Assembly: GCA_963930775.1 (NCBI GenBank)
Contig: OZ005698.1
Coordinates: forward strand, 7,570,501 to 7,634,500
Source: Cliona cf. orientalis
Lineage: Eukaryota; Porifera; Demospongiae; Clionaida; Clionaidae
DNA: 64,000 bases
Reading direction: 5' to 3'
Numbering within the stretch: the first letter of the stretch is position 1; every line of letters begins with the position of its first letter. Both the position numbers and the translations under genes were made by a program. Below the pieces are notes generated by a model, which was not told the DNA's origin, did no database searches, and saw only the letters and a program-made list of their open reading frames with translations. This document shows, piece after piece, positions 23,144-63,569 of the stretch.

Positions 23144-25428
23144 CTACGTTATATTGCTTATGCCTGATGTGATTGCTGGAACCATGATATCCTCATCGAC
23201 AACAGTAGTAGGAAGCAATCCTATTGATAATGAGTATAATAATAATATTATGACTCAAAATAGCTATATATTATAATAATAGGTGGTAAATTGGTTACTA
23301 GCACATTAATATTCATGCTAGCTACTTCAATATGCACAGTGCATGCGTGGTAATGCAGGTGTATGATTAACTAATGCCTATATGTATCCACAACTTAATG
23401 ATACTTACCGGTATCGTACACTTTCAATACTTTCTCCGCCAGCTCTTGAAGGTGAATCTCATTCAACATGCGCGCAACGTCTCTCCAAGTGTTTCCTCCC
23501 TGCCTCAGCCAGTAATCCAGTACTTCAACTATGCTTTCCTCTGGGGTATAGTTTAAGCACTTGTTTAGTATATCCATTGGCACTCCAGCAGCCACACCAA
23601 ACTCATGCCACAAAGGAGTCACCTGACATCGGACTTGAATTAACAAAGTATCCAAGTTTAGATACTTATCTATTATAATACACATGTGTCTGCCATGAGA
23701 AATTGGCATTGAATATCGGTAAAACTTACCAACATCACTCTTAAATGAGTTTTGATGTTGTGTATGATTCACTTCAGCATATTCCACTCTATCTGCACTT
23801 GGTATTATGTTAGTCCTAACTCTAGTGTCGGAACCAATCTCCAGATAGGTCATCAATCCCTGTATCATGTAACAACAATAAGACAAACTTAAATTATTTA
23901 TATTATTTATGAAATTTTCACACCTCTTCATTGGACGAATGTTGAAGCAAGCTGTATTGACCTAAGTCCTGCTTTAAAAATGGTAAATTAATAGCTCTTA
24001 AAGGTCAATCATTGGATGTTTTCACTATCCATCTATGCACTATCAAGTTTACCATAATATTAATATTGCTGCCCGTAGGATCATTTGCCAGATGGTCAGA
24101 TGGAGCACGGGCTTCAGTTTCAAAGTCTAAGATACTGCACACGTAAGTGATCAGAGTATTATTACACATGTATTTGTACTATGAAACTTACGTTCGTGTT
24201 TTATGTTTTGCAATTGACTTGTATTTCATGATAGCTACCATAAAAATTATGGCTAGCAAAAGTAACAGTACTCCAGTAGATGCCACAGGAAGAGATATTG
24301 CAACTGCATGCACGAATAAAAAAATTAATATCTATTTAGGAGTATCTTAGACTAGTATTTTACATGAAATATGTACCTATACTCCTGGACCAGCCCTGTC
24401 CTTTAAGTATTTGTTTGGCTTTAAAGATGATGATTAAAATCAGATATTAATTGCAATTTTATGATAATAATAATTATTATTTACACTAACTTGTTGAATT
24501 AGGTGTAGTAGGTGTATCTGTAGTTAAGATATTATATTCAGGAGCCCTAATTAGCTCATAATAGGTCTTACCATTTACTATTAAGCGTACTGAATACTCT
24601 TCACTAGTGACTTCAGTTGTATTACCACACACAGTAACGTGAACGATCACTGTTGCATTGCACATACCAGCTAATAGATCACTCACTGTCAAGTTACATG
24701 TTACAGACGAGATCAATGAAGTTGTGGGTGGGCACATGCCACAATTTGAAGTGTTTACAGTATAAGTCAAATTTAGTGTACCACTACAGTTCAGTATGTC
24801 ATTATACTCTACGTCCCACGTAATTGTCAGTTCATTCGTCTGAAGTACAAATATAGTAAGATTTATGTTAATTGATGTAAGAAGAGCTGTATAGACCATA
24901 TTTGCATAATTATGGATAAAAATACATACCTAGTAACAATTTACCTGGTGGTATGCCAATTTGCTTGCTGCCAATAATCTGCCCACTTTTGTTAGCACAT
25001 TCAATAGTCCTACCAAACAAGCCCTCACTGATGTTAACAAGGAGCTGTGAAGTAAAGGATCCATCTGCAACTGAAACACTGCGACCGACTATCGGCCCCC
25101 TGGCTCCACACAATTCCTGAATTTCTATCCCCGAAGTAAACTGGCTATGACGCAGTGTAATTTTATCATTCTGACAGTCATCAAAGACAGTTCCTTGCCA
25201 GACTGTTGCAGCTCCACCAGTGATAGTACACTCCACTACCAGCTCACATCCACTTGAGCCAACAATTCTTAACTCGTTTTCTTGCATGATACCTCAATTA
25301 TAATAGTAATATTTATATCAGGACTGTCACAATAGTTCATTATAGAATTACTATTGTACCTTACCAGACTGAGTCTTGACGCCAGAAACTGTGAGAACCA
25401 ACAACAGCATTGTACCTAAAGGATCCAT
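23144..25428 (-). CDS. R5: Ig/FN3 receptor with death domain
   Basis: Eleven exons give about 501 residues in frame. Order: signal peptide (25365-25428, MDPLGTMLLLVLTVSGVK), Ig-like (24945-25292), FN3-like (24572-24886, NTSNCGMCPPTT), stalk exons 24491-24517 and 24377-24418, membrane helix (24192-24303, VASTGVLLLLLAIIFMVAI), three short juxtamembrane exons, death domain (about 23408-23669, DTLLIQVRCQVTPLWHEFGV to TWRDVARMLNEI) and terminal exon 23144-23220. The tail has MTYLEI (ITSM-like) and, 22 residues on, VEYAEV (ITIM-like) before the death domain. A shifted frame in the last exon ends the protein at GISNIT, without the proline-rich end of R9 and R18. It is divergent from R6 across 371 bp, and the two Ig domains differ at only a few residues. 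Confidence 0.87.
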
Positions 25429-25799
25429 GGAGTCTAAGTTGACCATTTGGCAATCAACGGTTGATTAAGAAGTTGTATGAATGCACTCTCTTGATCTAAT
25501 ATTAGAACTCTTAATATGGAAGAGAATAATAATATTTTTTTATTCAAACTTTTGGGGCTGGAAACACGAATGGCCATGGCTATGATTTTCAATTCCAAGA
25601 TTTGAGTGGCTGTTATGCCGTAATTCCCAAGTCATTACTCGTACTCTTGGATTAGCTTTATGTGTGTGCAGAACTGTAGCACTGTAGCAGTTCCCAAATT
25701 TTTGCCAAAATAATTATAAACGTTTAAACTAGCTGCATGCAGATAATTATTATGCAAAGCACACAGTGAGAGAGTTACAACTGCAACACTTTTGCTATA
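25429..25799. promoter_or_regulatory. Shared promoter of pair R5/R6
   Basis: A 371-bp spacer between head-to-head starts. A conserved block around 25548-25572 (ACTTTTGGGGCTGGAAACAC then GAATGG) recurs in the other pair promoters at about 30196, 33770, 43690, 48600 and 53044, and inverted near 61245. Probably a common regulatory element; factor unknown. Confidence 0.55.
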
Positions 25800-27485
25800 A
25801 TGCTACCTGCAGCTGTTTTTGTGCCTCTCATACTAGCATCATTGATCTTCAGATCAGGTAAATACAAACTTTAAACAGTGTAGAAATTATGTTATTTCTG
25901 TACTATAACAGGTACTGCACAAGAAAACGAGTTAAGAATTGTTGGCTCAAGTGGATGTGAGCTGGTAGTGGAGTGTACTATCACTGGTGGAGCTGCAACA
26001 GTCTGGCAAGGAACTGTCTTTGATGATGATTGTCAGAATGATAAAATTACACTGCGTCATAGCCAGTTTACTTCGGGGATAGAAATTCAGGAATTGTGTG
26101 GAGCCAGGGGGCCAATAGTTGGTCGCAGTGTTTCAGTTGTAGATGGATCCTTTACTTCACAGCTCCTTGTCAATATTAGCGAGAACTTGTTTGATAGGAC
26201 TATTGAATGTGCTAACAAAAGTGGGCAGATTATTGGCAGCAAGCAAATTAACGCACCATCAGGTAAAATTAATATGCATACATACATGCACCGTCTCTAT
26301 AAAGTACAATTATAATGTATGTTAATAATACCTTGCATAATAATATTATTATAGAAGTTTTCCCACCACCAAATATTACACTTTCTGAGATCAACAGAGA
26401 CCACCTGACTTTCACATGGGACTCCATTGCTACAAACGTATCTGGTGTGCAGTATTTTATTAGCACTTCAAACTGTGGTGTGTGCCCTAATACTACCTAT
26501 TCTACTTCTGTGAGGTGTGATTTCATCAACATTACTTCAAACCTCCACGAATGTTCCCTAACAATTCTAACCATGGTGTGTGGTAGAAATGGATCAGGTA
26601 GTGATCCATTCATTGTTACAGTAAGAGGTCAGTTGAAATTTATACACATTCTAAGACTCAGTGTGATAATTGTATCAAAAATTATACTAATAGTTCCACA
26701 CTCACCAACAGTTCAGATAGTACAAGTTACTGAAGGTTTGACTCTGATTACAACTGCTTTCAATAAAACCGTAAGGTTATCAATTTTCAGCTCCAGTCAC
26801 TAAAATTATAATTAGAATCTTGCAATGTCAGGAACTTATCTCCCTCAGTGATGGAACGACTGTATTAGCTACCGCTTTTACCATAAGCTACTCTGATTCG
26901 AGCACCGGTGAAACATGTGGTTTATCTACAATACCAGCTTCCTCGTGTGGGGAGAGAATTTGTAGTAATGTATTTGAAGTATCATCCACTTCATGTTTTA
27001 ACTTCACAAACATTGCTGTGAGTTTCTTTGCTAGCAGTAGTAGGCTAGGAAATGGACCTTCTTCTGGACAAACCTTCATCACACTTCAGCAACATAATGA
27101 CAGTGAGTCACAATGCTTACTTTGAAATTCATTACTAAGCTTATTGATTTGCTATACAGGTGTCAGAAACCAGGACTATCCTATGTGTGCATGCATGGAT
27201 TTTAGAGATATTACATATTATACATTTATCACCAGTGGAGGAGTAGCTTTTTTGATACTGATTGTAATTACAGCTGTGTTTATTTCTGTGACAGTTTTAC
27301 TTATTCGAAGTAAACGGTTGATGCAAAGGGAACTGAAAGATATTAAAGAGAGTCAGGACAACAGAAAGAAAGGCGACACTGTGTATGAAGAAATAAAACC
27401 ACTACCAGCATCAACTGTCATTGCAACAACTGAGAATACTGCCTACACGTGCATTTCAAGAATGTGTACTAATGCAAGCCTCTAA
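25800..27485 (+). CDS. R6: Ig/FN3 receptor with YEEI tail
   Basis: Six exons (25800-25857, 25912-26262, 26355-26627, 26694-26770, 26832-27102, 27160-27485) join to 451 residues. Order: signal peptide (MLPAAVFVPLILASLIFRSG); Ig-like domain (ELVVECTITGGAATVWQG to IECANKSG); FN3-like domain (TSNCGVCPNTTYS); second FN3-like domain (GETCGLSTIPASSCGERIC); membrane helix (GGVAFLILIVITAVFISVTV); 60-residue tail. The tail holds DTVYEEIKPLP and, 20 residues on, NTAYTCI. Both fit the immune switch consensus T-x-Y-x-x-V/I, and YEEI is also an optimal Src SH2 site. There is no death domain. It is the divergent partner of R5. Apparently intact. Confidence 0.9.
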
Positions 27486-27665
27486 CAGCCAATAACAATA
27501 ACTGTAAATAAATGGTATCAATTATTAATGCTCATACAAATAACATAACTTAATGCTGAAGCAGTTTTGGTTATAATAGGAGTAATAATTATTATTATGA
27601 TTACACAAACTATGATGACAGTTAGATTGACTAACTATAGTATGTGAATAATACAGTGTTGCCTA

Positions 27666-29212: not shown

Positions 29213-30063
29213 TTAGCTCATGATAATATTATAGATCTCACCATTAAGATCCACTGAATATTGTTCAGTTATTACTCTATGACACTCTATGATTTGAATC
29301 GTCACTGTTACATTACATACTGGTGTATCAACTTGCAGATTACTTTCTGTTAAATTACATGTTGCAAAGTTGGATGAAGCTATCGTTCTACACGTACCAC
29401 AATTTGAGATATTTACATATTCATAAATTTGAGTCATCAATGCGTCATTATCATACACTAAGTCCCAAGTAATTATCATTTCTCCTGGGATAGACTTAGG
29501 GGGTAGAACACTTATATTTATTGCTGCAGGAAGAGCTGTACATTATTTTTACCAATCATAAGATAATGCAAATCTATACCTCACATACCTGGTATTGATG
29601 ATGTGTCAATTTTATGGCTACCAACAATATATCCACTTTGGTTAGCACATTCAATAATCGTACCATTAATTATTGCGTTGTCATAAACAGGTACAAGGAG
29701 CTGTGAAGTAAATTAAGGATCCATCTGTAACTGAAACACTGCGAATAACTATTGGCTGCATTGTCCCACATGATGCATTGAGAAATATCCCCGAGGTATT
29801 AAACTTGCTGTGTCGTAGTGTAATCTTATCATTCTGACAGCTATCAAAGATCGTTCCTTGCCAGACCGTTGCAGCTCCACCAGTGATAGTACACTCCACT
29901 ACCAGCTTACATCCACATGAGCTGACAACTCTAAACTCATTTTCTTGTGCAATACCTCAAATTAAATAGATATCAGTAATAATAATAATATCAATAAAAT
30001 GCAACTTGCCTGATTTTATGCCAGAAACAATGAGAACTAACAAGTGTCTACCGAAGTATCCAT
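29213..30063 (-). pseudogene. R7: relic of a minus-strand receptor
   Basis: Remains of a receptor like R9: signal-peptide exon (about 30010-30063), Ig exon (about 29590-29945) and FN3 exon (29213-29510, SNCGTC and FATCNLTESNLQV). The signal exon is frame-shifted by a short loss, and the Ig exon has an extra AATT near 29715. No membrane or tail exons follow; the next sequence is the fragment at 28740-28993. It was the head-to-head partner of R8. Confidence 0.8.
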
Positions 30064-30415: not shown

Positions 30416-30760
30416 ATGCTACCTGCAGTCATTACTGTAATTCTTTTGTTAACAGTAACAGGTTCAATCTTCAGACCAGGTAAATAAGAAGTTTATCTGT
30501 ATTAAAATGACATCATTCTGTATAGCTAGGTGAGGCATATGGAAATGAGTTCAGAGATGTCAGCTCATGTGTATGCCCTGGGTGTGAGCTGGTAGTGGAG
30601 TGTACTATCACTGGTGGAGCTGCAACAGTCTGGCAAGGAACTGTCTTTGATAGCTGTCAGCTGAATGATAAAATTACACTACGTCATAGCCTGTTTAATT
30701 TAATACAGGGATAGTGCTCGATGAATCATGTTATCATATTATCATAGCCATATATATAGA
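30416..30760 (+). pseudogene. R8: truncated plus-strand receptor
   Basis: Signal-peptide exon (MLPAVITVILLLTVTGSIFR, from 30416) and the first half of an Ig exon (CVCPGCELVVEC, TITGGAATVWQGT), which then changes near 30745 into sequence matching the region downstream of R4 (from about 22290). A recombination junction replaced the rest of the gene. Frame is also disturbed before the junction. Confidence 0.8.
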
Positions 30761-31425: not shown

Positions 31426-33654
31426 CTAGTAGGGCTTAGGAGGCAGAGGAGGAGGAGAAGGCTGACTCTGATCATGAGTCTCAGATGTTACTTCTCCTAT
31501 GCCTCCTGATGTAATTGCTGGAACCATAATGTCCTCGTCAACAACGGTAGTGGGAAGTAATCCTATTGATAATGTGTATAATAGTTATGACTCATATTAT
31601 AGATGGTTGGTTCGCTACATGTAACTAAACATGCACAGTGCATGCGTGCATGGCAATGCAGGTGTGTGATCAATGCAACTGATGCCTATAATATGTATCA
31701 GACATTTAAGGCTTACCAGTATCATAAACCTTTAATATCTTTTTTGCCAGATCTTGAAGGTGAATCTCATTCAAGACACCGGCAACATCTCTCCAAGTTT
31801 TTCCTCCCTGCCTTAGCCAGTAATCCAGCACTTCAACTATGCTTTCCTCTGGGGTATAGTTGAAGCACTTGTTTAGTGTATCCATTGGCACCCCAGCAGC
31901 TACACCAAACTCATGCCACAGGGGAGTCACTTGATACCGGACTTGAATTAACAAAGTGTCCAAATTAAGATACTTATCTATGTGGATGTGATCGATATAT
32001 TGATCAATAAAAAATGCACAGTTTCTAATTATCTTACCAATTGAAATTTGAGGTTTTGTAGACTTGCGATGATTCACTTCAGCATACTCCACTGAATCTG
32101 CACTTGGCAGTACTTCTGTCCTAACTCTCGTATTGGGACCAATCTCTAGATAGGTCATTAGTCCCTGTAAAAATTAATTATGATAAACCTAAAAGATTCT
32201 CTATTCATACTCTTTCTACGTACCTCATTATTGGATGGATACTGAAGTAAGCTGTATTGACCTAAGTACTGCTTTTTTTATAATAACATTAAAATTATGT
32301 ACTGGTTCTAATATTATTTTTTTTTATTTACCATCATGTTATCACCCTCTACATCTACATGTACAGGATTATCTGAATGATCTGAAATGCCTCCAATCCT
32401 AAGTAATGTCATAGTTAAGCACAACATTATTACTATAATAATTATCATATGATGGTGAGTGATGGGGCTATGAAACTTACATTTGTTTTTTGTGCTGTGA
32501 TTTGTATTTCACAATAGCTACCACAAAAATCATAGCTAGCACAAGTAGCATTAACAGTAATCCAATGGATGCCAAAGGAATAGCTACTAGAAAGACCTTC
32601 TGAGGCTCGTTGTATAAAAGAGGCGTACATATACTCCAGTTTCTTGTAGCCACCTGTTTAGCTTTATAGAGGAAATAATATGGCTTTAGTTACTGAGTAT
32701 GCATAACTAAGTACGTTACACTAACTTAAATTAGCTGTAGTCATCGTATCATTATGTGTGGCATAAACCAGATCTGTATAGGTTAGACCGATGATCATGA
32801 TACATTAGCTCATGATATTATAGATCTCACCATTAAGGTCCACTGAGTATTGTTCGGTAATTACACTGTTACACTCAATGATTTCAATCATCACTGTTAC
32901 ATTACATACTGGTGTATCAACTTGCAGATTACTTTCTGTTAAATTACATGTTGCAAAGTTGGATGAAGCTGTCATACACATACCACAATTTGAGGTATCA
33001 TAGACTTGAGTCACATTCTGATTCAGTGTGTCGTTCTCATACACTAAGTCCCAAGCAATTATCACTTCTCCTGGGATAGACTTAGGGGGTAGAACACTTA
33101 TATTTATTGCTGCAGGAATAGATGTATATTTTTAGCAATCATAAAGTAGGTATATAGATCTCACACACCTGGTATTGATGATGTATCAATTTTATGGCTG
33201 CCAATAATATTATATCCACTTTGGTTAGCACATTCAATGATCGTACCAATAATTGAATTGTTACAAAGAGTTACAATGAGCTGTGAAGTAAAGGATCCAT
33301 CTGCAGCTGAAATACTACGACCAACTATTGGCGGCATTGTCCCACATGATTGATTGAACACTGTCCCTGTATTAAACTGGGTATGACGTAGTGTAATTTC
33401 ATCATTCTGACAGCCATCCAAGATCGTTCCTTGCCAGATTGTTGCAACTCCACCAGTGACAGTACACTCCACTACCAGCTCACACCCACATGAGCTGACA
33501 ACTCTAAATTCATTTTCTTGTGCATTACATCAATAAAGATATCAGTAGTAATAATAATTATAATAATATTAACACCAACATAATACAACTTGCCTGATTT
33601 TATGCCAGAAACCATGAGAACTAACAATAGTATTATAGTGCCTAAAGTATCCAT
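31426..33654 (-). CDS. R9: Ig/FN3 death-domain receptor, Pro-rich end
   Basis: Ten exons join in frame to 518 residues: 33594-33654, 33169-33516, 32831-33109, 32726-32773, 32481-32661, 32332-32398, 32224-32271, 32038-32164, 31717-31977, 31426-31562. Order: signal peptide (MDTLGTIILLLVLMVSGIKS); Ig-like; FN3-like (TSNCGMC, FATCNLTES); stalk; membrane helix (LASIGLLLMLLVLAMIFVVA); MTYLEI and VEYAEV tyrosine motifs; death domain (DTLLIQVRYQVTPLWHEFGV to TWRDVAGVLNEI); and a C-terminus with PSPPPLPPKP, a likely SH3 ligand. The first intron uses a GC donor (CAG|GCAAGT). It is divergent from R10 by 341 bp. It is the best-preserved minus-strand death-domain gene of the cluster. Confidence 0.9.
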
Positions 33655-33995
33655 GAAGTCTCATTTGTAGATGAATACTAGTTGATTGACAGTTGACAGT
33701 TAAAGTTATGCAGAAGATAAGTGGTTACCAATTATAATTCTGTCATGAGGAAGTTGGATATCAATTTAAACTTTGGGAATGGAATCATGAACGATCACTT
33801 ATAACTTAAATCGCATATCAGAACTACTGCTACTTTCAATTCCCAGGTATTACATAACCCATTCTCTTGCGGATTGGAGTATGAATCAATAGAGGCAGAA
33901 TTCCCAAAATATTACCACTGCTCGTAGCAAAATTATGTGAATACGCAAAGCACACAGTGAGAGAATCAGATTGGCTTTGAATTTTACAAGATATA
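33655..33995. promoter_or_regulatory. Shared promoter of pair R9/R10
   Basis: A 341-bp divergent spacer with the conserved block AAGTTGGATATCAATTTAAA then CTTTGGGAATGGAATCATGA at about 33751-33789. Near-identical blocks lie at 43671-43708 and 48588-48626, and an inverted one near 61240-61275. Confidence 0.6.
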
Positions 33996-35681
33996 ATGCT
34001 ACCTGCAGTCATTACTGTGATTCTTGTGCTAGCAGTATCAGATTCAATCTTCAGATCAGGTGAAAAATTTTATCTGTACTAACATAATAATATGCATCAT
34101 TCTGTATAGGTGAGGCACATGGAAATGATATCAGAGATGTCAGCTCATGTGTGTGCCCTGGATGTGAGCTGGTAGTGGAGTGTACTGTCACTGGTGGAGC
34201 TGCAACAGTCTGGCAAGGAACGGTCTTTGATAGCTGTCAGAATGGTGAAATTACACTACGTCATAGCCAGTTTAATACAGGGACAGTGCTCAATCGATCA
34301 TGTAGGACAATGCCACCAATAGTTGGTCGCAGTGTTTCAGTTGCAGATGGATCCTATACTTCACAGCTCCTTGTCAACATTAGTGAGGACTTGTTTGGTA
34401 GGACTATCGAATGTGCTAATAGCAGTGGATATATTGTTGGCAGAAAGCAAATTGGCACACCATATGCATCAGGTAAAATTAATATGCGTGCATAAAATTT
34501 CTTTATGATGTAATTGCACATCTTTTGTAGATTTTTTACTGTCACCAAATATCACTCTTTCTGAGATCAACACAGACCAACTGACTTTCACATGGAACTC
34601 CATTTCTGCAAACATATTCAGTGTGGAGTATTTTGTTAATGCTTCAAACTGTGGTGTGTGCCCTAACACTACATATTCTAATTCTGTGAGGTGTAACTTC
34701 ATCAGCATTACTTCAAATCTACACGTTTGCTCTCTAACAATTCTAACTGTCGCGTGTGGAATAATTGGGTCAGGTAGTGATCCGTTCATTGTTACAATAA
34801 AAGGTCAGTTGACATAAGCTGATACTCATATACACAATACGCATTCTCGTGATTTTATCACCTTATCATCATATCAAAATTATACTAATAGTTCCACACC
34901 CACCAAGAGTTCAGATAATGCAAGTTACTGAAAGTTTGACTCTGATTATAACTGCTTTCAATAAAACCGTAAGATTGTTTTGATTATTATTTTATACCAC
35001 TAATTAATTAGAATCTTCATCAATTTTACAAAAGGAAGTTGTCTCACTTGCTAATGGAATGACTGTATTAGCTACCTCGTATACTATAAGCTACTCTGAT
35101 TCGAGCACTGGTGAAACATGTGGTTTGTCTACTATACCAGCTTCCTCGTGTGGGGAGAAAATTTGTAGCAATGTATTTGAAGTATCATCAACTTCGTGTT
35201 TTAACTTTACAAATATTGCTGTGAGTTTCTTTGCTAGCAGTAGCCTGGGAAATGGACCTGCTTCTGAACAAACCTTAATCTCACTTCAGCAGTACAATAA
35301 CAGTGAGTCACGGTATCTAAATTTGAATTTTTTATAATTGATTTGCTCCTGACAGGTGTCAAAAGGCAAGATGAGTCAGATGACCCTATATGCATGGACT
35401 TTGGAGATATTACAAATACACTGATCACTAGTGGAGTAGTGGCTTTGTTAATACTGATTCTATTTACCACTGTGTTTGTTTCTGTGACAGTTTTACTTAT
35501 TCGAAGTAAACAATTGATGCAAAGGGAACTGAAAGATATCAAAGAGAGTCAGGATAACAGAAAGAAAGGTGATACTGTGTATGAAGAAATAAAACCACTG
35601 CCAGCATCACCTGTCATTGCAACAACTGAGAATACTGCATACACGTGCATTTCAAGAGTGTGTGCTAATGCAAGCCTCTAA
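33996..35681 (+). CDS. R10: Ig/FN3 receptor with YEEI tail
   Basis: Six exons (33996-34059, 34110-34472, 34531-34803, 34892-34968, 35035-35302, 35356-35681) give 456 residues. Same plan as R6: signal peptide, Ig-like (CVCPGCELVVEC to IECANSSG), two FN3-like domains, membrane helix (VVALLILILFTTVFVSVTV), and a tail with DTVYEEIKPLP and NTAYTCI. In the Ig domain the segment NTGTVLNRSCRTMPPIVGRS matches its divergent partner R9 (NTGTVFNQSCGTMPPIVGRS) better than the Ig domains of R6 or R16. Apparently intact. Confidence 0.9.
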
Positions 35682-37249: not shown

Positions 37250-38129
37250 CTACACAACAGATACAGCCACATAAGAAAGGTTTCCCATCATTTGAATGTG
37301 AGCTCTAGCTTCAGGATCTGGCATTTTATTGACTTCCAATTCTCGGTGGGAGGAATTTGGTAATGAGGGCTCATCATAGATGTTCTCTAATGTGAATCAA
37401 ATTATGGATATTACAAATCGAGACACAAGCTAAAGATTGAATTACCTTCTTTTCTATTTAATGAGCAACATAACTCTGATTTATGCTTTCTGTGGCACCA
37501 CAATATAGTATTTAAAGCATCTTTAGATACAGTTAACACGTACTGGAAGGGCACCATAACTGCCTCGTGCTACTACTGAGCGAGTTACTGTGCAGTGAGT
37601 GAATTTTTGAGTCTTCTTCTACGCTTCCTACCTGCTCATCAGCTTGTAAACATGCCCAAACCCGAGTCTACGCGTCGCTCAACCACCACTGCACGGTGAG
37701 CGGCGGGGCCTTCCACAGCAACTGTTCGGCGATCGGCCTGATCTTCCACGGCCGCGAGTACCGCTGCTGCTGGCTCCACTTCTTCCCAGCAGCTACCTTC
37801 TTCGTCCTCTACCCCTGCCGACCCTCAGCTATCATCTGCCGGGGAGTCCTTATCGGAACTCCTGGAGCTTATCCGAACCCGAGCTGCAGGCACAGCATTT
37901 AGCCGGCCAATCCACCAACGCCACAACCGCTGACGCCACTGTGGCGCCCAACACCGCCCCTGGAAGTACGCCACTGTAATCCGGAGCCAGGCCAACAGCA
38001 AGTTGTATGCTGTATTTGTTTCTGTACATACTTATTATGTGGGTAGAGCTGGCAAGCATGCACGGCCCCGCCCTGTAACGGCCCCCCTTTTGCGCACCTC
38101 AACCCCCTCATGCACATACACATACACAC

Positions 38130-40520: not shown

Positions 40521-40784
40521 ATCCGCACTTAGCATCTTCTTTCTACGCTGCATATCTACTCATATACAATTAATTTGTTGGCACTATCCCTCCCGTCCGC
40601 CAGCATATACCACACCACACCTGCTAGAGAGGATTCATGCCCTGTGGTTCAGAAGAGCACTTGTCCTTCGACAAAAGCGTGCTTTGAGCAGCATTTTGCT
40701 TGGGAGTTTTCGGGTTCATGCGATCAGGGGAGTTCACTTGCTCCCCCTCGGGCAACCCTAGCGACGGCACATTGACAGTATCTG

Positions 40785-41123
40785 ATGTGCAGGACTAACC
40801 ATCAAATGCTAAGCATCCTTCTCAGGAAAAGTAAAACGGATCCATTTGGCACTGGTACTTATCTGTACATTGGACGGACTGGCACTGTAATATGCCCTGT
40901 GTCAGCACTGTTGGCTTACCTGGCGATCCGTGCTCCGAGCCCAGGCCCACTCCTCATATTCCAGGATGGTACTCCACTTAGCAGGCAGCAACTGGTGGCT
41001 CACCTACATAGCGCATTAGCGGGAATAGGTGTTGATGTTGCTAACTACTCGGGCCACAGCTTTAGGATTGGCGCAGCTTCTATATACTGCAGCAAGCGCT
41101 GGTTTCATTTTGTTCTATTATGA
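40785..41123 (+). pseudogene. Tyrosine-recombinase domain of the element
   Basis: Fossil part of the element at 37503-42361. The C-terminal catalytic region of a Ngaro/DIRS-like tyrosine recombinase is recognised from the domain opening, the PVSALLAYLAIR helix and the box GHSFRIGAAS with the H-x-x-R arrangement. It shows the family assignment only and looks incomplete. Confidence 0.75.
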
Positions 41124-48850: not shown

Positions 48851-49374
48851 ATGCTACATTGTGTACCTGCAGTCCACGTCATTACTGTGATCCTTGCACT
48901 AGCAGTATCAGATGCAATCTTCAGATCAGGTGAATAAAAAGTTTAACATAATGATACATAAATGCATTCTGTACAGGTGAGGCACGTGGAAATGAGTTCA
49001 GAGATATGTCTGACTCACATATCCTTGTCAACATCAGTGAGGATCTACTTGGTAGGACTATCGAATGTGCTAATAAAAGTGGACAAATTATTGGCAGCAA
49101 CTTAAGCAAATTAACACACCATCAGGTAAAATTAATATTCATACATACATGCACCCTTTCTAATTATAATATCTTGCATAATAATAATATTATTATTATA
49201 AAAGTTTTCCCATCACCAAATATTACACTTTCTGAGATCAACACAGACCAACTGACTTTCACATGGGACTCCATCTCTACGAACGTATCTGGTGTGCAGT
49301 ATTTTGTAAGTACTTCAAACTGTGGTGTGTGCCCTAACACTACATTAATTCTGTAAGGTGTGACTTCATCAATA
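48851..49374 (+). pseudogene. R14: relic of a plus-strand receptor
   Basis: Partner of R13. The signal-peptide exon has an extra 10-15 bp; the Ig exon has lost its centre (FRDM joins directly to the SHILVNISEDLLG region); the FN3 exon begins normally (about 49204) and stops after GVCPNTT near 49370, where R4-like sequence begins. Confidence 0.8.
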
Positions 49375-49650
49375 TTAGTGACAACTATTCTATTTTTGTT
49401 ATATTATTATCTATTCAGACAATCGCTTAATATTGTCATAAGATTTTCAAATCCTGATAAGCCAGGATCCTTAGCTCAGATGTTAAAAGTCATCATGTAC
49501 TAGTCTAAGATGTTGAAACGCTCCCATGGGATGACCATCACATTGCTAAAATGAAAGAGTCTTACACACATCGCAGCACCACACAAGGAGAGGTGGATGG
49601 AAACGCATTCGAACGTGAGCCTCCGAGGGTTGATAATTCTGAAGTTTAAG
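49375..49650 (+). pseudogene. Fragment of the R4 ACT-receptor gene
   Basis: Starts in the membrane-helix exon of R4 (matches from about 20135), continues through the first half of ACT1 (DKPGSLAQML), then jumps near 49505 to the last R4 exon (matches from about 22095) and ends with the R4 stop. ACT2 to ACT4 are lost. This shows that the R4-R5 block was duplicated and then trimmed. Confidence 0.85.
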
Positions 49651-50581: not shown

Positions 50582-52849
50582 CTATGTTATATTGCTTATG
50601 CCTGATGTGATTGCTGGAACCATGATGTCCTCATTGACAACAGAAGTAGGAAGTAATCCTATTGACAATGAGAATAATAATAATAATATTATGACTCAAA
50701 TATATAGATGGTAAATTGGTTACTAGCACATTAATATTCATGCTAGCTACTTCAATGTGCACAGTGCATATGTGGTATACGTAATGCGGGTGTGTGATCA
50801 ACTAATGCCTATGTATCCACAACTTAATGATACTTACCGGTATCGTACACTTTCAATACTTTCTCCGCCAGCTCTTGAAGGTGAATCTCATTCAACACGC
50901 GCGCAACGTCTCTCCAAGTGTTTCCTCCCTGCCTCAGCCAGTAATCCAGCACTTCAACTATGCTTTCCTCTGGGGTATAGTTTAAGCACTTGTTTAGTAT
51001 ATCCATTGGCACTTCAGCAGCCACACCAAACTCATGCCACAAAGGAGTCACCTGACACCGGACTTGAATTAACAAAGTATCCAAGTTTAGATACTTATCT
51101 ATTATGATTCACATGTATCTACCATGAGAAATTGGCATTGAATATCGGTAAAACTTACCAACATCACTCTTAAATGAGTTTTGATGTTGTGTATGATGCA
51201 CTTCAGCATATTCCACTCTATCTGCACTTGGTATTATGTTTGTCCTAACTCTAGTGTTGGAACCAATCTCCAGATAGGTCATCACTCCCTGTATTATATA
51301 ACAACAATAAGATAATTATATTATTCATGAATTTTTCATACCTCTTCATTGGATGGATGTTGAAGCAAGCTGTATTGACCTAAATCGTGCTTTGAAAAAA
51401 TTAATGGTAAATTAATAACTCTTAAAAGTCATTGGATGTTTTCACTATCCATCTATGCACTATCAAGTTTACCATAAAATTAATATTGCTTCCCGTATAC
51501 GTAGGATCATTTGCCAGATGGTCAGCTGGAGCACGGGCTTCAGTTTCAAAGTTTAAGATACTGCACACGTACATGTAAGTGATCATGCAGAGTATTATTA
51601 CACATGTATGAAACTTACATTCGTGTTTTATGTTTTGCAATTGACTTGTATTTCATGATAACAACCATAAAAATTATGGCTAGCAAAAGTAACAGTACTC
51701 CAGTAGATGCCACAGGAAGAGATAATGCAACTGCATGCGCGAATAAAAAGTATCTTAGACTAGTATTTTACATGAAATATGTACCTATACTCCTGGACCA
51801 GCCCTGTCCTTTAAGTATTTGTTCGGCTTTAAAGATGATGATTAAAATCAGATATTAATTTTATGATAATAATAATTATTATTTACACTAACTTGTTGAA
51901 TCAGGTGTCTGAGTAAGTGGATCTGTAGTTACTGTAATTTAAGATATTATAATATTTAGGAGGCCTAATTAGCTCATAATAGGCCTTACCATTTAATATT
52001 AATATTAAGCGTACTGAATACTCTTCACTAGTGGCTTCAGTTATATTACCACACACAGTAACGTGAACGATCACTGTTACATTGCACATACCAGCTAGTA
52101 GATCACTAGCTGTCAAGTTACATGTTACAGAGGTGGATGAAGTTGCGGGTGGGCACATGCCACAATTTGAAGTGTTTACAGTATAATATAATTGAGTCAA
52201 ATTTAGTGTATCACTATACTTCAGTGTATCATTATACTCTACATCCCACGTAATTGTCAGTTCGTCCGTCATAGACTTCTGAAGTACAAATTCAGTAGGA
52301 GTTATGTTAATTGATATAAGAAGAGCTGTATAGACCATAATTGCATAAAAATGTAACAATAATTTCATGCATTTACCTGATGGTGTGCCAATTTGCTTGC
52401 TGCCAATAATCCGTCCACTTTTGTTAGCACATTCAATAGTCCTACCAAACAAGTCCTCACTAATGTTGACAAGGAGCTGTGAAGTAAAGGATCCATCTGC
52501 AACTGAAACACTGCGACCAACTACCAGTCCCCTGGCTCCACACGATTCCTGGATTATTGTCCCTGAAGTAAACCCACTATGACGCAGTGTAATTTTATTA
52601 TTCTGACAACCATCAAAGATGGTTCCTTGCCAGACTGTTGCACCTCCACCAGTGACAGTACACTCCACTACCAGTTCACATCCACTTGAACTAACAACTC
52701 TTAACTCATTTTCTTGCATGATACCTCATTTATATATATCAGGACTATCACAATAGTTCAGTATAGAATTACTATTATACCTTACCAGACTGCGTCTTGA
52801 CACCAGAAACTGTGAGAACCAACAGTAGCACTGTACTTAAGGGATCCAT
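50582..52849 (-). CDS. R15: Ig/FN3 receptor with death domain
   Basis: Paralogue of R5 with the same eleven exons and all frames kept: signal peptide about 52786-52849, Ig-like 52377-52724, FN3-like 51990-52325 (NTSNCGMCPPAT), stalk, membrane helix about 51622-51733, MTYLEI and VEYAEV tyrosine motifs, death domain about 50838-51098 (DTLLIQVRCQVTPLWHEFGV, TWRDVARVLNEI) and terminal exon 50582-50658 that ends early without the proline-rich stretch, like R5. The Ig domain (GTIIQESCGARGLVVGRS) is almost identical to that of its divergent partner R16 and clearly different from R5. Apparently intact. Confidence 0.87.
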
Positions 52850-53276
52850 GGAGTCTAAGTTGACCACTTGGCAATCAACAGTAACTGTTGATTCAGAAGT
52901 TGTATGAATACACCCTTTTGATCTAGAACTCTGGAAGAGAATTGAAGTAATAATATATAATATTATTGTTCTTGTTCAAACAGTGTATCTAATATTAGAA
53001 CTCTTACTAATATGGAAGAGGAATTAATCATCAAAAGGAATCAAACTTTTGGGACTGGAAATACGAATGGCTATGGCTATGACTTTCAATTCCAAGATTT
53101 GCGTGGCTGTCATGCAGTGATTTTAATTCCCAAGTCGTTACTCGTATTCTTGAATTATCTTTATTATTATTGTATGTGCAGACGTGACTGTAGCAGTTCC
53201 CAAATTATTGCCTAAATTATAAATGTTTAAACCAACTGCATGCAGATAATTATAAGCGAGTTACAATTTTGCTATA
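52850..53276. promoter_or_regulatory. Shared promoter of pair R15/R16
   Basis: A 427-bp divergent spacer with CAAACTTTTGGGACTGGAAA and TACGAATGG at about 53042-53070, the element shared with the other pair promoters. Confidence 0.55.
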
Positions 53277-54976
53277 ATGCTACCTGCAGTTATTTTTGTG
53301 CCTCTCATATTAGCATCATCAATCTTCAGATCAGGTGAATGCAAACTTCAAACAGCGTAGAAGTTATATAATTTCTGTACTATAACAGGCACTGCACAAG
53401 AAAATGAGTTAAGAGTTGTTAGCTCAAGTGGATGTGAACTGGTAGTGGAGTGTACTGTCACTGGTGGAGGTGCAACAGTCTGGCAAGGAACCATCTTTGA
53501 TGGTTGTCAGAATAATAAAATTACACTGCGTCATAGTGGGTTTACTTCAGGGACAATAATCCAGGAATCGTGTGGAGCCAGGGGACTGGTAGTTGGTCGC
53601 AGTGTTTCAGTTGCAGATGGATCCTTCACTTCACAGCTCCTTGTCAACATTAGTGAGGACTTGTTTGGTAGAACTATTGAATGTGCTAACAAAAGTGGAC
53701 AGATTATTGGCAGCAAGCAAATTAACGCACCATCAGGTAAAATTAATATGCATACATACATGCACCCTCTCTATAAAGTATAATTATAATGTATGTTAAC
53801 AATATCTTGCATAATAATAATATTATTATAGAAGTTTTCCCACCACCAAATATTACACTTACTGAGATCAACACAGACCACCTAACTTTCACATGGGACT
53901 CCGTTGCTACAAACGTATCTGGTGTGCAGTATTTTGTTAGTACTTCAAACTGTGGTATGTGCCCGAATACTACATATTCTACTTCTGTGAGGTGTGATTT
54001 CATCAATATTACTTCAAACCTACACAAATGTTCCCTAACAATTTTAACCATGGTGTGTGGTAGAAATGGATCAGGGAGTGATCCGTTCATTGTTACAGCA
54101 AGAGGTCAGTTGAAATTTATACACATTCTAAGACTTGTGATTTTAATCTTATATTCGTATCAAAAATTATACTAATAGTTCCACACTCACCAACAGTTCA
54201 GATAGTACAAGTTACTGAAGGTTTGACTCTGATTACAACTTCTTTCAATAAAACTGTAAGGTTATCGATTTTCAGCTATAGTCGCTAAAATTATAATAGA
54301 GTCTTGCAATATCAGGAACTTATCTTCCTCAGTGATGGAACTGCTGTATTAGCTACCTCATATACCATAAGCTACTCTGACTCAAGCACTGGTGAAACAT
54401 GTGGTTTATCTACAGTACCAGCTTCCTCATGCGGGGAGAAAATTTGTAGCAACGTGTTTGAAGTATCATCCACTTCATGTTTTAATTTCACAAATATTGC
54501 TGTGAGTTTCTTTGCTAGCAGTAGTAGCCTAGGAAATGGGCCTGCTTCTGGACGAACCTTCATCACACTTCAACAACACAATGACAGTGAGTGGCAATGC
54601 TTACTTTAAAATTCGAATTCATTACTATAAAGCTTATTGATTTGCTACAGGTGTCCTAAGCCAGGACTATCCTATGTGTGCATGCATGGATTTTAGAGAT
54701 ATTACATATTATTCATTTGTCACCAGTGGAGGAGTAGCTTTGTTGATACTGATTCTAATTACGACTGTGTTTGTTTCTGTGACAGTTTTACTTATTCGAA
54801 GTAAACGGTTGATGCAAAAGGAACTGAAAGATATCAAAGAGAGTCAGGATAATAGAAAGAAAGGTGACACTGTGTATGAAGAAATAAAACCACTACCAGC
54901 ATCACCTGTCATTGCAACAACTGAGAATACTGCATACACATGCATTTCAAGAGTGTGTGTTAATGCAAACCTCTAA
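53277..54976 (+). CDS. R16: Ig/FN3 receptor with YEEI tail
   Basis: Same six-exon plan as R6: signal peptide 53277-53334 (MLPAVIFVPLILASSIFRSG), Ig-like about 53389-53736, FN3-like about 53832-54104 (TSNCGMCPNTTYS), linker exon, second FN3-like about 54316-54586 (GETCGLSTVPASSCGEKIC), membrane helix plus tail about 54651-54976 (GGVALLILILITTVFVSVTV; DTVYEEIKPLP; NTAYTCI). Both tail tyrosines fit T-x-Y-x-x-I. It looks intact. Divergent partner of R15, with which it shares almost the whole Ig domain. Confidence 0.9.
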
Positions 54977-55924: not shown

Positions 55925-55935
55925 TTCAAACAGCC

Positions 55936-59301: not shown

Positions 59302-59426
59302 GCACTAGTCAATCCAACAGAGTTTGCATGTCTAATCTATGGTATAATCACAATTTCATACAGAATTACAGTATATCCATTCAAAATTACTTCACCACTA
59401 TGCATATTGTCATAAGCTCACTACTG

Positions 59427-61054
59427 TTAGAGGCTTGCATTAGCACACACTCTTGAAGTGCACGTGTATGCAGTGTTCTCAGTTGTTTCAAAAACAATTG
59501 ATGCTGGTACTTCTTCATACACAGTGTTGTCTTTCTCTCTGTTATCTTGACTCTCTTTCAGTTCCTTTTGTAGCAACCGTTTGCTTCGAATCAGTAAAAG
59601 TATCACACAAACAAGCATAGAAATAATTAGAACCAGTATTGATGAAGTTACTACTCCACCAGCGATAATATCTCCAAAGTTTATGCATATAAGGTAGTCC
59701 TGTCTCCTGGCACCTGTAGCAGCAAGCCAATTAATAAGCTTAGTAAAGAATTTCAAGGGATTATGACTCACTATCATTATATTGCTGAAGTCTGATTAAG
59801 GTTTGTCCAGAAGCAGGCCCATTTCCCAGGCTACTGCTAGCAAAGAAACTCACAGCAATGTTTGTAAAGTTAAAGCATGAAGTTGATGATACTTCAAACA
59901 CATCACTACAAATTCTCTCCCCGCATGAGGAAGCTGGTATTGTAGACAAACCACATGTTTCACCAGTGCTCGAATCAGAGTAGCTTATAGTATATGAGGT
60001 AGCTGATACAGTAGTTCCATCAGTAAGTGAGATTATTTCCTATGATGATGATAGATTAATCCTAATTGAATTTGAACCTTTGACCTTACATTTTTGTTGA
60101 AAGCAGCTTTAACTAAGGCAAAAGTTTCAGTAATCTGCAATATCTGAACTCTTGGTGGGTCAGGAACTATTCGAGAAAAAAACATTGTTATAGTAGTGAA
60201 GGTATTACAATAATAATTATAATGTTATGTAAACTGACCCTTTACTGTAGTGATAAATGGATCACTAGCAGTTCCAATTCTACCACATACAACAGTTTGA
60301 ATGGTTACAGAGCATTGAAGTAATTTTGAAACACCAGTATTTGTGAAGTTACACCTCACAGAGTTAGAATTCATTGTGCGTAGACACACACAGTTTGAAG
60401 TATTAACAAAATACTGCACACCAGATAGGTATGTAAAGATGGAATCCCATGTAAAAGTCAGTTGGTCTATATTGATCTCATAAAGTGTGATATTTGGTGA
60501 TGGTAAAATATCTATAAAAGATATCCATGCAATTGCATTACAGAGAAATTAATTTTTATGCACGCATACCTAACGGTGTATCAATTTGCTTGCTGCCAAT
60601 AATCTGTCCACTTTCATTAGCACATTCAATAGTCTTATCAAATAGGTCCTCACTAATGTTGACAAGGAGCTGTGAAGTGAAGGATCCATCTGCAACTGAA
60701 ATACTGCGACCAATTACTGGCCCCCTAGTTCCACATGATTCCTGGATTATTATTCCAGAAATAAACCCATTATGACGTAGTGTAATTTTTTTATTTAGGC
60801 AGCCATCAAAGATTGTTCCTTGCCAGACTGTTACTCCTCCACCAGTGATAGTACACTCTACTACCAGCTCACATCCAGGGCACACACATGAGCTGACATC
60901 TCTGAACTCAATTCCAAGTGCCTCAACTATAATTATAATAATAATTATTATTATACAGAATGACACATAAAAATTAATAAGACTATTCACCTGTTCTGAA
61001 GATTGAATTAGATACGTCTAGTATAAGAATAATAGCAGTGATTGCAGGTAGCAT
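59427..61054 (-). CDS. R17: Ig/FN3 receptor with YEEV tail
   Basis: Plan of R6 on the opposite strand: exons 60991-61054 (signal peptide MLPAITAIILILDVSNSIFR), 60570-60926 (Ig-like, CVCPGCELVVEC to IECANESG), 60239-60511 (FN3-like, shortened signature TSNCVCLRT), 60090-60167, 59772-60039 (GETCGLSTIPASSCGERIC), 59427-59713 (membrane helix SILVLIISMLVCVILLLI and tail). The tail has NTVYEEVPAS and NTAYTCT, so the second tyrosine motif has lost its final Ile. The linker exon has 78 bp against 77 in paralogues because of a run of five T, which would shift the frame; this may be a base error or a real lesion. Divergent partner of R18. Confidence 0.72.
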
Positions 61055-61388
61055 TATCTTATAAGATAGTTGCAAATCAATCTCAGGCTGGTTTTCTCAC
61101 TGTGTACGTGGCGTGAGTGGTTTTGCTTGATATTCACATGCATTAAAAATGTTTGCTATATGAGCAGTGACCCTTTGGGAATTTTCCATGGCTCTATAGA
61201 ATCATCATGCATGGCAGTAACAGTTTGTGATTTCAAAGCTATGCAGTCCCAAAGATTAAATTGATATTCAACTTTCTCCAGTGGTTATCATTCATACAGC
61301 TAGTTTTAACTGGTGTGCACTGACCACTCATCTTCCATACATCTTCAACGGTATAACTAAAAGGATTCAACTACTAGACCTCATGACC
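61055..61388. promoter_or_regulatory. Shared promoter of pair R17/R18
   Basis: A 334-bp divergent spacer. The conserved pair-promoter block is present in reverse orientation (CCCAAAGATTAAATTGATAT then TCAACTTTCTC, about 61248-61278), in keeping with the inverted order of tail types. Confidence 0.55.
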
Positions 61389-63569
61389 ATGGATACTTTA
61401 AGAACTGTAATATTATTGCTAGTGGTTCTCATGGTTTCTGATATAAAATCAGGCAAGTTATGCTTTAAAATTAATGTTAATAATAATTACTGATATCTCT
61501 TGCAATGTACAAGGAAATGAGTTAAGAGTTGTCAGTTCATGTGAATGTGAGCTGGTAGTGGAGTGTACTGTCACTGGTGGAGGTATAACAATCTGGCAAG
61601 GAACGATCTTTGATGACTGTCACAGTGGAGAAATTAGACTACGTCATAGCCAGTTTAATATTTCAGGGACAGAAATCCATGATCAATGTGGAATGAGGCA
61701 CCCAGTCATTGGTCGTAGTGTTTCAGCTGGAGATGGATCCTTTACTTCACAGCTCATTGTACCTCTATGTGAGAACATGGTTAATGGTACGACTATTGAA
61801 TGTGCAAATGAAAGTGAACTGATTGTTGGCAGCAAGCAAATTGATACATCATCAATATCAAGTGTGTGAGATCTACTATGATAAGTTTTCATTATATTAT
61901 GTATAGACTTCATGCATATTAATATGCAGATCTTCGGATTCCTGCAGCAATAAATATAAGTATTCTACCGTCTAAGTCTATCCCAGGAGAAATGACAATT
62001 ACTTGGGACTTGGTGTACGATAATGATACACTGACTCAGAATGTGACTCAAGTTTACAATATAAATACCTCAAATTGCGGGATGTGTACAATCGTAGCTT
62101 CATCTAACTTTGCAACATGTACTTTAACAGCAAGTGATCTACAAGTAGAAACGCCGGTGTGTAATGTAACAGTGATGATTCAAATTATAGGGTGTAATAG
62201 TATAATAGCTGAACAATATTCAGCAGACCTAAATGGTGAGATCTACCTTACATATAATGGATCTGACTTATAAACTGCCATATTAAATTTTACAGGTCTT
62301 AAGCTTATTTATCCTATAAGTAATAATATGATGACTACTGGAGCTGATTTAAGTTAGTATAAAATTTAATATTAAATTTTAAGCATACTATTGTACTCAT
62401 TAGTAATGCCATGCATATATAAATACTTCTCTTTAAAGCTGAAGGGGGCCCATTGGCTACAAAAAACAACAACGACCCTCTTCAAAAGGTCTTGTTTGTA
62501 TCTCTTCCTTTGGCATCAGTTGGAATACTAATAATAACTGTGGTACTAGCTGTGATTTTTGTGGTAGTTATTATGAAACGCAAATCTCAGCGCAAGAAAA
62601 TGTAAGTTTTAAAGCCTGATCACTCATAATAATGTATTCAATTTGATAATTATGTTTAGAATTATTGGAGGAGCTTCTGAATTAGATCATTCTGATAATC
62701 CAATAGATCGTGACATCATGATAGTAAATTATAACCAATGATTTTTTTACGATTAATTATAATAATAACAGGATACAGATCAATACAGCTTACTTCAGCA
62801 TCCATCTGATAAGTTAGACGAGGTATTGAAGGATTATAAATTAAATTAAGAGATAGATTTGCAAATTATTATACAGGGAGTGATGATCTATCTCGAGGTT
62901 GGTCCAGATACAAGAGTTGGGACAGCAATAATACCTAGTGCAGATAGGGTGGAGTATGCTGAAGTGAAAACAAAACCTCAAACTTCAATAATTATTGGTA
63001 TACAATTAGATACACATCAATAATTATTTTTGTTGATTGATATTATTGTGCTACTAGATAAATATCTAAACTTGGATACTCTGTTAATTCAAGTCCGGTG
63101 TCAGGTGACTCCCCTGTGGTATGAATTTGGTGTGGCTGCTGGAGTGCCAATGGATACACTAAACAAATGCTTCAACTGCACCCCAGAGGAAAGCATAGTT
63201 GAAGTGCTGGATTACTGGCTGAGGCAGGGAGGGAAAACTTGGAGAGATGTTGCCTGTGTATTGAATGAGATCCACCTTCAAGAGTTGTCCAAAAAAATAT
63301 TAAAGGTTTATGATACCGGTAAGTATCATAGGATACATTATGAAAAACTATGCATCAATTATTGATTATTACACCTGCATTGCTGCGCATACCATGCATG
63401 CTATTATAAATAGTGAGGCAATAGTACATATGTGAATATTTTAATAGTCGTCCACTTAATATTAGGAACACTTCCTACTACTGTTGTTGATAAGGACATT
63501 ATGGCTCCAGAAGTAACATCTGAGAAGAGTCAGTCTCCCCCTCCTCCTCCTCTGCCACCTAAACCTTAA
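61389..63569 (+). CDS. R18: Ig/FN3 death-domain receptor, Pro-rich end
   Basis: Ten exons join in frame to 512 residues: 61389-61452, 61514-61861, 61930-62235, 62296-62352, 62439-62601, 62660-62723, 62772-62822, 62877-62997, 63058-63318, 63466-63569. Order: signal peptide (MDTLRTVILLLVVLMVSDIK); Ig-like (CECELVVECTVTGGGITIWQ to IECANESE); FN3-like (NTSNCGMCTIVA); stalk; membrane helix (VGILIITVVLAVIFVVVIM); MIYLEV and VEYAEV tyrosine motifs 22 residues apart; death domain (DTLLIQVRCQVTPLWYEFGV to TWRDVACVLNEI); and C-terminus SQSPPPPPLPPKP, a likely SH3 or WW ligand. The first intron has a GC donor. It is the only death-domain member of the cluster on the plus strand. Apparently intact. Confidence 0.9.

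Follow-up and report, generated by a model that had tools for sequence, protein, structure and literature searches.

The window analysed here, a stretch of 64,000 nucleotides from contig OZ005698.1, carries an array of predicted receptor genes with immunoglobulin (Ig)-like domains arranged head to head. Read directly from the DNA, the core of the arrangement is a set of pairs with close divergent starts, a common Ig-like N-terminal exon, different membrane-proximal FN3-like domains and differing tails. Comparison of the window with itself and a search with domain peptides identify seven head-to-head receptor units at 23-64 kb, bearing out the original prediction, which had included the relic pairs R7/R8 and R13/R14. 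We number the units P1-P7 and distinguish a D class, the death-domain arm, from a Y class, the arm with a YEEI/V...TAYTC tail; in the earlier numbering, R5/R6 are D1/Y1, R7/R8 are D2/Y2, R9/R10 are D3/Y3, R11/R12 are D4/Y4, R13/R14 are D5/Y5, R15/R16 are D6/Y6 and R17/R18 are Y7/D7. Unit P7 is inverted as a whole and keeps its divergent layout. Both members are intact in four of the seven pairs (P1, P3, P6 and P7), for which the range of 334-427 bp given earlier between start codons is exact. An eighth, older divergent pair, R3/R4, lies at 15-22 kb. The domain-peptide search finds nine D-class and nine Y-class genes or relics in the window, eight of each divergent, a count that omits stray pieces near 28.8, 36.7, 46.9 and 57.4 kb; R2 and R1 stand in tandem on the minus strand, and the description of the pairing as obligate was too strong. 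Blocks of 1-4 kb are common to the units at ~72-90% identity in the self-comparison, which argues that the units are duplicates of one ancestral pair and not seven independent events. All gene models are predictions from sequence and represent one haplotype.

Seven exons make up a D gene: those for the signal peptide, the Ig-like and FN3-like domains and the transmembrane segment, a short one of 28 or 34 nt, one bearing two tyrosine motifs, and the death-domain exon. D1, D3, D6 and D7 yield open spliced models (Table 1). Apart from the GC-AG first intron of D3 and D7, every intron in these two genes is GT-AG, as are all introns of D1 and D6. A direct splice from the transmembrane exon to the VEYAEV exon was rejected because the phases clash, a conflict resolved by the conserved 28- or 34-nt exon between them. 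Y genes have six exons, encoding a signal peptide, the Ig domain, two FN3-like domains, a transmembrane segment and the YEEI/V...TAYTC tail, and Y1, Y3, Y6 and Y7 give open spliced models. A hydropathy scan places one strong transmembrane segment in each of nine models (D1, D3, D6, D7, Y1, Y3, Y4, Y6 and Y7); an N-terminal hydrophobic stretch is clear in most of them and weak in D1 and D6 (best 19-residue means of 1.27 and 1.39).

The tails differ in all four intact pairs, and opposite action cannot be read from their sequence. As had been predicted, each of the four complete D models (D1, D3, D6 and D7) ends in a death domain and faces a partner with a Y tail (Y1, Y3, Y6 and Y7, respectively); the proposed YEEI/T-x-Y-x-x-I lettering of that tail holds for both motifs in Y1, Y3 and Y6 and fails in Y7, which reads YEEV and TAYTCT. 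The motifs TVYEEI/V and TAYTCI/T lie 20 residues apart in Y1, Y3, Y4 and Y6, and 17 apart in Y7. Each of the four death-domain genes also has a pair of tyrosine motifs ahead of the death domain, M-T/I-Y-L-E-I/V and V-E-Y-A-E-V, spaced by 22 residues. VEYAEV or VEYATL occurs in six of the nine D-class genes or relics, and R2 and R3 retain related motifs (Y-M-D-V, VEYATL) in the same position. We use the names immunoreceptor tyrosine-based inhibitory motif (ITIM), switch motif (ITSM) and activation motif (ITAM), YEEI and YDEP with their customary consensus sequences, that of the ITIM being I/V/L/S-x-Y-x-x-I/L/V in a cytoplasmic tail. By this consensus, candidate ITIMs are VEYAEV in D1, D3, D6 and D7, VEYATL in R2 and R3, and LSYVAV in D4 and D5. 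Because the death arm has tyrosine motifs too, assigning death to one arm and survival to its partner oversimplifies.

Partners in a pair have homogenised Ig exons, a result that goes beyond the original prediction, as do the tyrosine motifs of the D arm and the R3/R4 pair. Identity between partners is 93.9% in D1/Y1, 96.5% in D6/Y6, 84.1% in P3, 83.9% in P4 and 79.6% in P7, the relics D2, Y2, D5 and Y5 being excluded from the D-by-Y tests. Across these five pairs the mean D-Y identity is 87.6% within pairs against 81.4% in other combinations, and among the 120 possible D-Y pairings the true one alone reaches the observed mean. In the four intact pairs the values are 88.5 and 81.7% (rank 1 of 24). 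The effect is strongest over the exon's first two thirds, where columns 1-270 give 91.4 against 82.5%, again the top rank of 24. The FN exons serve as a negative control for the pairing test, though not as an argument against neutral homogenisation, since their divergence would hinder conversion; they give 48.7 against 49.0% (18 of 24). Among the 237 ungapped sites in columns 1-270, 12 mark the unit lineage in both arms and five mark one pair; no site splits the D genes as a class from the Y genes, and 69 show other variation. Counts of nucleotides found in one pair alone are seven for P1, two for P6, five for P7 and zero for P3 and P4, with 0-1 for mismatched partners (0, 1, 0 and 0 in the case of P7). 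D1 is closer to Y1 (93.9%) than to Y6 (88.4%), and D6 closer to Y6 (96.5%) than to Y1 (88.7%), indicating that matching continued after the duplication that separated P1 from P6; P3 and P4 give no consistent indication of this. Beyond the Ig exon the likeness drops: over the adjoining 60 nt, the partners of P1 and of P6, the pairs covered by this test, are 28-42% identical without gaps. Trees built from the first 270 columns (R4 excluded, as in all trees) join D6 with Y6 (support 63), D1 with Y1 (78) and D3, D4 and D5 with Y3 and Y4 (95); the whole-exon tree retains D6 with Y6 (53) and the D3-D5 group (95). These patterns suggest that Ig similarity has been maintained by gene conversion in P1 and P6, and in part elsewhere.

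The spacers between the heads behave differently from the exons they separate. Within duplicate lineages they are 88% (P1/P6) and 95% (P3/P4; the P4 spacer is 339 bp) identical, and between lineages 43-56%, with P1 at 44-56% to the spacers of P3, P4 and P7. A strongly conserved shared promoter was considered and rejected, the spacers being less conserved than the Ig exon. Gene pairs with a bidirectional promoter are defined by divergent transcription start sites within 1 kb; the 334-427 bp given here are distances between start codons.

Structure prediction is consistent with the domain assignments. The AlphaFold2 (AF2) model of the death-domain exon, from six sequences, is confident and helical (predicted local distance difference test, pLDDT, 86.8; predicted TM-score, pTM, 0.78), with five helices of at least four residues, the first of them long. 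In a Foldseek comparison with the PDB, the first 26 of the 39 matches listed are death domains by title; Fas/FADD and DR3 lead, RIPK1, TNFR1, ankyrins and Pelle/Tube also appear, and TM-scores reach 0.77. Model and matches together point to the six-helix death fold and support the earlier call. For the Ig exon (15 sequences), AF2 predicts nine strands with a pLDDT of 76.2 (60-66 in the other four models), and C24, W34 and C101 are invariant in 15 of 15, which fits an Ig domain; 38 of the 50 Foldseek matches listed (of 1708) name an antibody part, MHC or an Ig receptor in their titles. "FN3-like" is our description, based on sequence pattern and on a profile search in which titin and cytokine receptors match very weakly (E 0.56-2.9, behind iron-sulphur proteins at 0.07). 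Sequence searches of the PDB returned no relative: no chain matched the Y1 ectodomain, and the one row returned was unrelated (E 0.87). In viral and prokaryote genome collections, 27 and 33 pattern matches were found, and none was confirmed as a relative.

Selection acts unevenly along the genes. Ratios of nonsynonymous to synonymous substitution (dN/dS) are means between unit lineages with codon-bootstrap limits, each averaged over five comparisons inside the D or the Y class; the bootstrap leaves out D4 and Y4 as well as the comparisons within a lineage (D1-D6 and Y1-Y6). Strong purifying selection marks the death domain (0.10; 0.05-0.19). The Ig exon stands at 0.68 (0.46-1.04) in D and 0.54 (0.35-0.87) in Y, the D tyrosine exons at 0.38 (0.19-0.73), the D FN exon at 0.37 (0.21-0.59), and the Y FN1 and FN2 exons at 0.37 (0.23-0.59) and 0.27 (0.15-0.45). 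Ig variation is greater outside the predicted strands (2.28 against 1.59 residue types per column in ten copies). Positive selection on the Ig exon is not supported, with an omega of 1.25 for D3-D4/Y3-Y4 and limits of 0.62-3.1.

The remaining units are altered in ways that touch both arms. For R11 and R13 (D4 and D5) an ITIM-like tail had been proposed, and it is indeed encoded: in both genes the transmembrane exon is succeeded by one of 44 nt and then by a tail exon (ENIYDEP...LSYVAV), with GT-AG splices and compatible phases. The opposite conclusion, drawn from a first scan that yielded no VEYAEV exon, was discarded when a scan past the insert found the LSYVAV tail exon. The D4 tail reads ENIYDEP...LSYVAVSVV and stops earlier than that of D5. 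The domain-peptide search of the window found no death-domain exon in D4 or D5. In D4, the FN3-like exon has a 10-nt deletion at its donor end that shifts the frame, as read by eye from two sequences; Y4 has a 10-nt deletion near the start of its FN1 exon. No transmembrane or tail match was found in D2. D and Y are both intact in four units and both broken or doubtful in three (Fisher 0.029 with Y4 counted as broken, 0.14 otherwise, for units that are not independent), which is suggestive only of a tendency for partners to decay together.

The insert in D4 is not present at the matching D5 junction. It contains a satellite at 38.1-40.5 kb, built of ~129-bp units, and a pair of 375-bp direct repeats with 99.7% identity. 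Its open reading frame (ORF) at 40776-41123, scanned over 40776-41120, has no Pfam match and is reminiscent of a tyrosine recombinase. Just past Y5, a fragment at 49357-49490 (+) matches the exon of R4 that joins the transmembrane segment to ACT (LFRQSLNIVIRFSNPDKPGSLAQMLK), and block duplications probably brought R4-type sequence with them.

Table 1. Receptor genes, relics, spacers and insert in the window (aa, amino acids; DD, death domain; TM, transmembrane)
Feature	Position	Strand	Content	Model
R1	8068..10511	-	Y-class, sushi domain, KIYEEI tail, in tandem with R2	domain matches
R2	11626..14221	-	D-class (Ig, FN3-like, VEYATL, DD), no divergent partner	domain matches
R3	15192..17731	-	older D-class (Ig, FN3-like, VEYATL, DD), head to head with R4	domain matches
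R4	18282..22236	+	older Y-class ectodomain and TM, then ACT-like repeats	domain matches
D1 (R5)	23395..25428	-	423 aa, seven exons: 25428-25365, 25292-24945 (Ig), 24886-24572 (FN3-like), 24303-24192 (TM), 23951-23924 (28-nt), 23859-23730 (two Tyr motifs), 23669-23395 (DD)	open end to end, six GT-AG introns
D1/Y1 spacer	25429..25799		371 bp, putative bidirectional promoter	
Y1 (R6)	25800..27485	+	451 aa; Ig exon 25912-26262; tail TVYEEI...TAYTCI	open, five GT-AG introns
D2 (R7)	29228..30043	-	relic: Ig exon frameshifted, FN3-like exon remains	
Y2 (R8)	30416..30731	+	relic: only signal exon and 5' part of Ig exon	
D3 (R9)	31706..33654	-	431 aa; first intron GC-AG; DD exon 31977-31706	open
D3/Y3 spacer	33655..33995		341 bp	
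Y3 (R10)	33996..35681	+	456 aa; tail TVYEEI...TAYTCI	open
D4 (R11) tail exons beyond insert	37253..37489	-	44-nt exon 37489-37446; tail exon from 37386	
Insert in D4 TM-tail intron	37505..42363	.	4.86 kb; satellite array and two 375-bp direct repeats	
D4 (R11)	42405..43581	-	signal, Ig, FN3-like and TM exons	no DD
Y4 (R12)	43921..45632	+	456 aa	open only with weak alternative donor at 44404
D5 (R13)	47390..48494	-	relic: FN3-like exon and Ig donor lost; exons TM 47928-47742, 44-nt 47684-47641, tail from 47571 ending LSYVAV...SSQN	
Y5 (R14)	48863..49385	+	relic: Ig internally deleted, FN1 broken	
D6 (R15)	50824..52849	-	430 aa; Ig exon 52724-52377	open
D6/Y6 spacer	52850..53276		427 bp	
Y6 (R16)	53277..54976	+	450 aa; Ig exon 53389-53736, 96.5% identical to D6 Ig exon	
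Y7 (R17)	59427..61054	-	441 aa; tail TVYEEV...TAYTCT	
Y7/D7 spacer	61055..61388		334 bp, inverted unit	
D7 (R18)	61389..63365	+	441 aa; first intron GC-AG	open

Among the older genes, R3 has several candidate start codons at 17719-17755 (-), facing the R4 start at 18282 (+). At 20026-22236 (+) the transmembrane frame of R4 runs open into an ACT domain, with ~5 ACT-like repeats after it; the first scores 29.1 bits in Pfam (cut-off 27), the next three fall below the cut-off at 23, 13.9 and 20.3, and the fifth gives no match. Such a cytoplasmic ACT array would be very unusual for a membrane receptor. At 20.9 bits, the sushi domain of R1 just passes its Pfam cut-off of 20.7. Three tandem copies of a 57-bp repeat (13670-13845, 95% match) adjoin the R2 Ig exon. 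At 57392-57633, an R2-type death-domain fragment with R2/R3-like DNA nearby forms a relic between units six and seven. Outside the receptor family, an ORF at 55891-56178 (+) is death-domain-like, with a weak Pfam match (13.1 against 27 bits). Two 0.4-kb copies at 7298-7706 and 56608-57014 are 90.5% identical and lie downstream of a malectin-like ORF at 5799-6101 (20.6 bits, cut-off 23), suggesting a flank duplication around the receptor array.

We propose, with moderate confidence, that the units encode paired type I membrane receptors in which one recognition specificity is coupled to two intracellular outputs and kept matched by gene conversion. Both arms would be co-expressed from the short spacer, and conversion between the inverted Ig exons would hold them on one ligand while the ligand or the binding face changes. 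Upon ligand binding, Src-type kinases might phosphorylate the tails; the D arm would then assemble a death-domain complex resembling that of Fas/FADD, with its own tyrosine motifs as the gate, and the Y arm would dock SH2 proteins and counteract or tune the D arm. Given that tyrosine phosphorylation switches Fas from death to survival, the D-arm tyrosines ahead of the death domain may act on the same chain. Because the Ig exon evolves fast and the death domain is strongly constrained, we infer a role in recognition, be it of self and non-self or of microbes.

Several observations weigh against this proposal. P1/P6 and P3/P4 are duplicates, and the five tested pairs amount to three lineages. 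Homogenisation across the whole exon is clear in P1 and P6; in P3 and P4 it is limited to the 5' two thirds and is not pair-specific, D3 being nearer to Y4 (85.3%) than to Y3 (84.1%) and D4 nearest to Y4. The signal in P7 is weak (D7-Y7 79.6%; D7 against other Y genes 78.7-79.3%; Y7 against other D genes 77.5-84.9%). The rest of the Ig exon ranks 3 of 24 in the four intact pairs (81.5 against 80.0%), and its 96 ungapped columns hold no unit, pair or type sites, with 50 varying otherwise. In trees of this last part the D3-D5 group (95) stands apart from Y3+Y4 (90), and Y1 joins Y6 (63), not D1; tree supports are modest overall. The signal exon, a further control, also ranks high (46.0 against 43.8%, 2 of 24). 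On the domain side, Pfam Death scores fall below the cut-off of 22.6 bits (15.2 in D1, 17.5 in D3 and 17.5 in R2), the Foldseek E-values of the death domain are all 0.26 or worse, and those of the Ig exon are weak as well (best 0.0089, TM-scores of ~0.5 or less). No Pfam Ig or FN3 match was found in D1, D3, Y1 or Y7, the four of the nine receptor models that were scanned. The Y transmembrane and tail region, at a dN/dS of 0.56 (0.35-0.94), is not clearly more constrained than the Ig exon, which weakens any claim of a sharp Y signal. An ITAM consists of two YxxI/L motifs spaced by 6-12 residues, and we rejected one in the Y tail, where the spacing by this measure is 16 residues in Y1, Y3, Y4 and Y6 and 13 in Y7, whose second motif lacks I/L. 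The D-arm tyrosines, 22 residues apart, likewise do not fit, and since neither tail has ITAM spacing, no activating arm can be named.

Other explanations share much of this evidence. Close inverted repeats are generally known to convert easily, and homogenisation could be a neutral by-product of inverted homologous exons ~0.6 kb apart, with arms that are functionally independent. The P1/P6 similarity, which stops at the exon edge, suits this explanation, and proximity has also been invoked for Siglec-11/16 (PMC5701461). The divergent layout of the old R3/R4 pair and of all seven P units counts against neutrality, as does the tendency of partners to decay together, neither being decisive; we consider it unlikely. 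The same Ig data also fit partners that cooperate, the common Ig domain binding itself or dimerising, D-Y heteromers forming in cis or binding in trans, and conversion keeping the faces compatible. Precedents are the neighbouring co-expressed FF/FcoR pairs of Botryllus, for which heterodimers have been suggested (PMC12065747), and plant NLR pairs, which are mostly head to head and act together (PMC9528088). The differing membrane-proximal architecture, with one FN3-like domain in D and two in Y, speaks against cooperation, which we regard as possible if on balance doubtful.

A microbe-sensing arms race, in which one arm is a counter-receptor to pathogens exploiting the other and allorecognition plays no role, shares the paired-receptor core of our proposal and differs only in the ligand. 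The same explanation has been given for CEACAM and Siglec pairs (PMC5112662, PMC5701461), and we tentatively hold it to be a substantial possibility. That the array no longer functions and is a tandem family in decay might be argued from the three of seven units that are broken or doubtful and from the mobile insert in D4; against this stand the dN/dS of the death domain, whose upper limit is 0.19, and eight genes that remain open through 5-6 introns, and we find it highly improbable.

If paired reception is correct, the evolutionary signature of paired receptors, here with death-domain tails and a tight divergent layout, arose or existed outside vertebrate immunity. Beyond this, one can picture a system for recognition outside the vertebrates that ties a death-domain receptor, itself equipped with ITIM-type tyrosines, to a divergent partner whose Ig head is kept identical in kind by gene conversion limited to that exon. 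Each unit would read one ligand as a choice of death or restraint, and D arms could swap a death-domain tail for an ITIM tail; should the host be a sponge, the array would be a candidate histocompatibility locus, and paired receptors would have originated there independently. We offer this fuller picture as speculation that is improbable as a whole. For studies of non-self rejection in early animals, the locus provides a shortlist of ~8 intact genes with defined partners, tails and a typeable, putatively ligand-binding exon.

A literature search over the titles and abstract openings of the entries listed, mostly without subscription papers, found no paper on such a locus, although one may exist. 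Among known systems, Fas resembles the D arm as a single-pass receptor with a C-terminal death domain; its ectodomain consists of cysteine-rich TNFR repeats, whereas that of the D arm is Ig/FN3-like. In Fas, tyrosine phosphorylation under Src kinases and SHP-1 flips the output from death to survival (PMC4778973), and the switch tyrosines lie within the death domain, whereas the two motifs described here precede it. Plant NLR pairs (RRS1/RPS4 and others) are likewise divergent immune-receptor pairs with shared promoter sequences (PMC9528088) but are intracellular, with sensor-helper logic and unrelated domains. In a graft transcriptome of the sponge Amphimedon queenslandica, cell-adhesion or apoptosis genes were not significantly enriched (PMC5450542), which offers no help to an allorecognition proposal.

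Also to be compared are the clustered IgSF receptors of the Hydractinia Alr allorecognition complex, which, compared by description, carry ITIM/ITAM-type motifs; the available portions of these reports describe no divergent pairs of death-domain and tyrosine arms (PMC11999971, PMC12065747). The FF/FcoR genes of the Botryllus fuhc histocompatibility locus are paired invertebrate receptors, neighbouring and co-expressed, with ITIM or hemITAM tails on FcoR and variation in gene content; they have Sushi and C2 domains, and the accessible text names no death domain and reports no homogenised partner ectodomains (PMC12065747). CEACAM paired receptors are known from Xenopus and mammals, and those of Xenopus resemble our array in conversion and in the suggested decay of partners together: ligand-binding domains are matched by gene conversion, tails are of ITIM/ITSM type and clusters decay after loss of a member, with neither a death domain nor a divergent layout mentioned in the part of the paper at hand (PMC5112662). 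Siglec-11/16 comes close in genetics, as a head-to-head pair of Ig-superfamily genes with opposite signalling whose ligand-binding exon is homogenised by repeated gene conversion (PMC5701461). Those genes lie ~9 kb apart with a converted region of ~2 kb, whereas 334-427 bp separate the start codons here and similarity is confined to one exon; unlike Siglec-11/16, the present array has a death domain on one arm and comprises seven units. The likeness to activating/inhibitory paired receptors drawn in the original prediction thus gains substance, as their hallmark, ectodomains matched by gene conversion with tails that differ, is found in the Ig exon.

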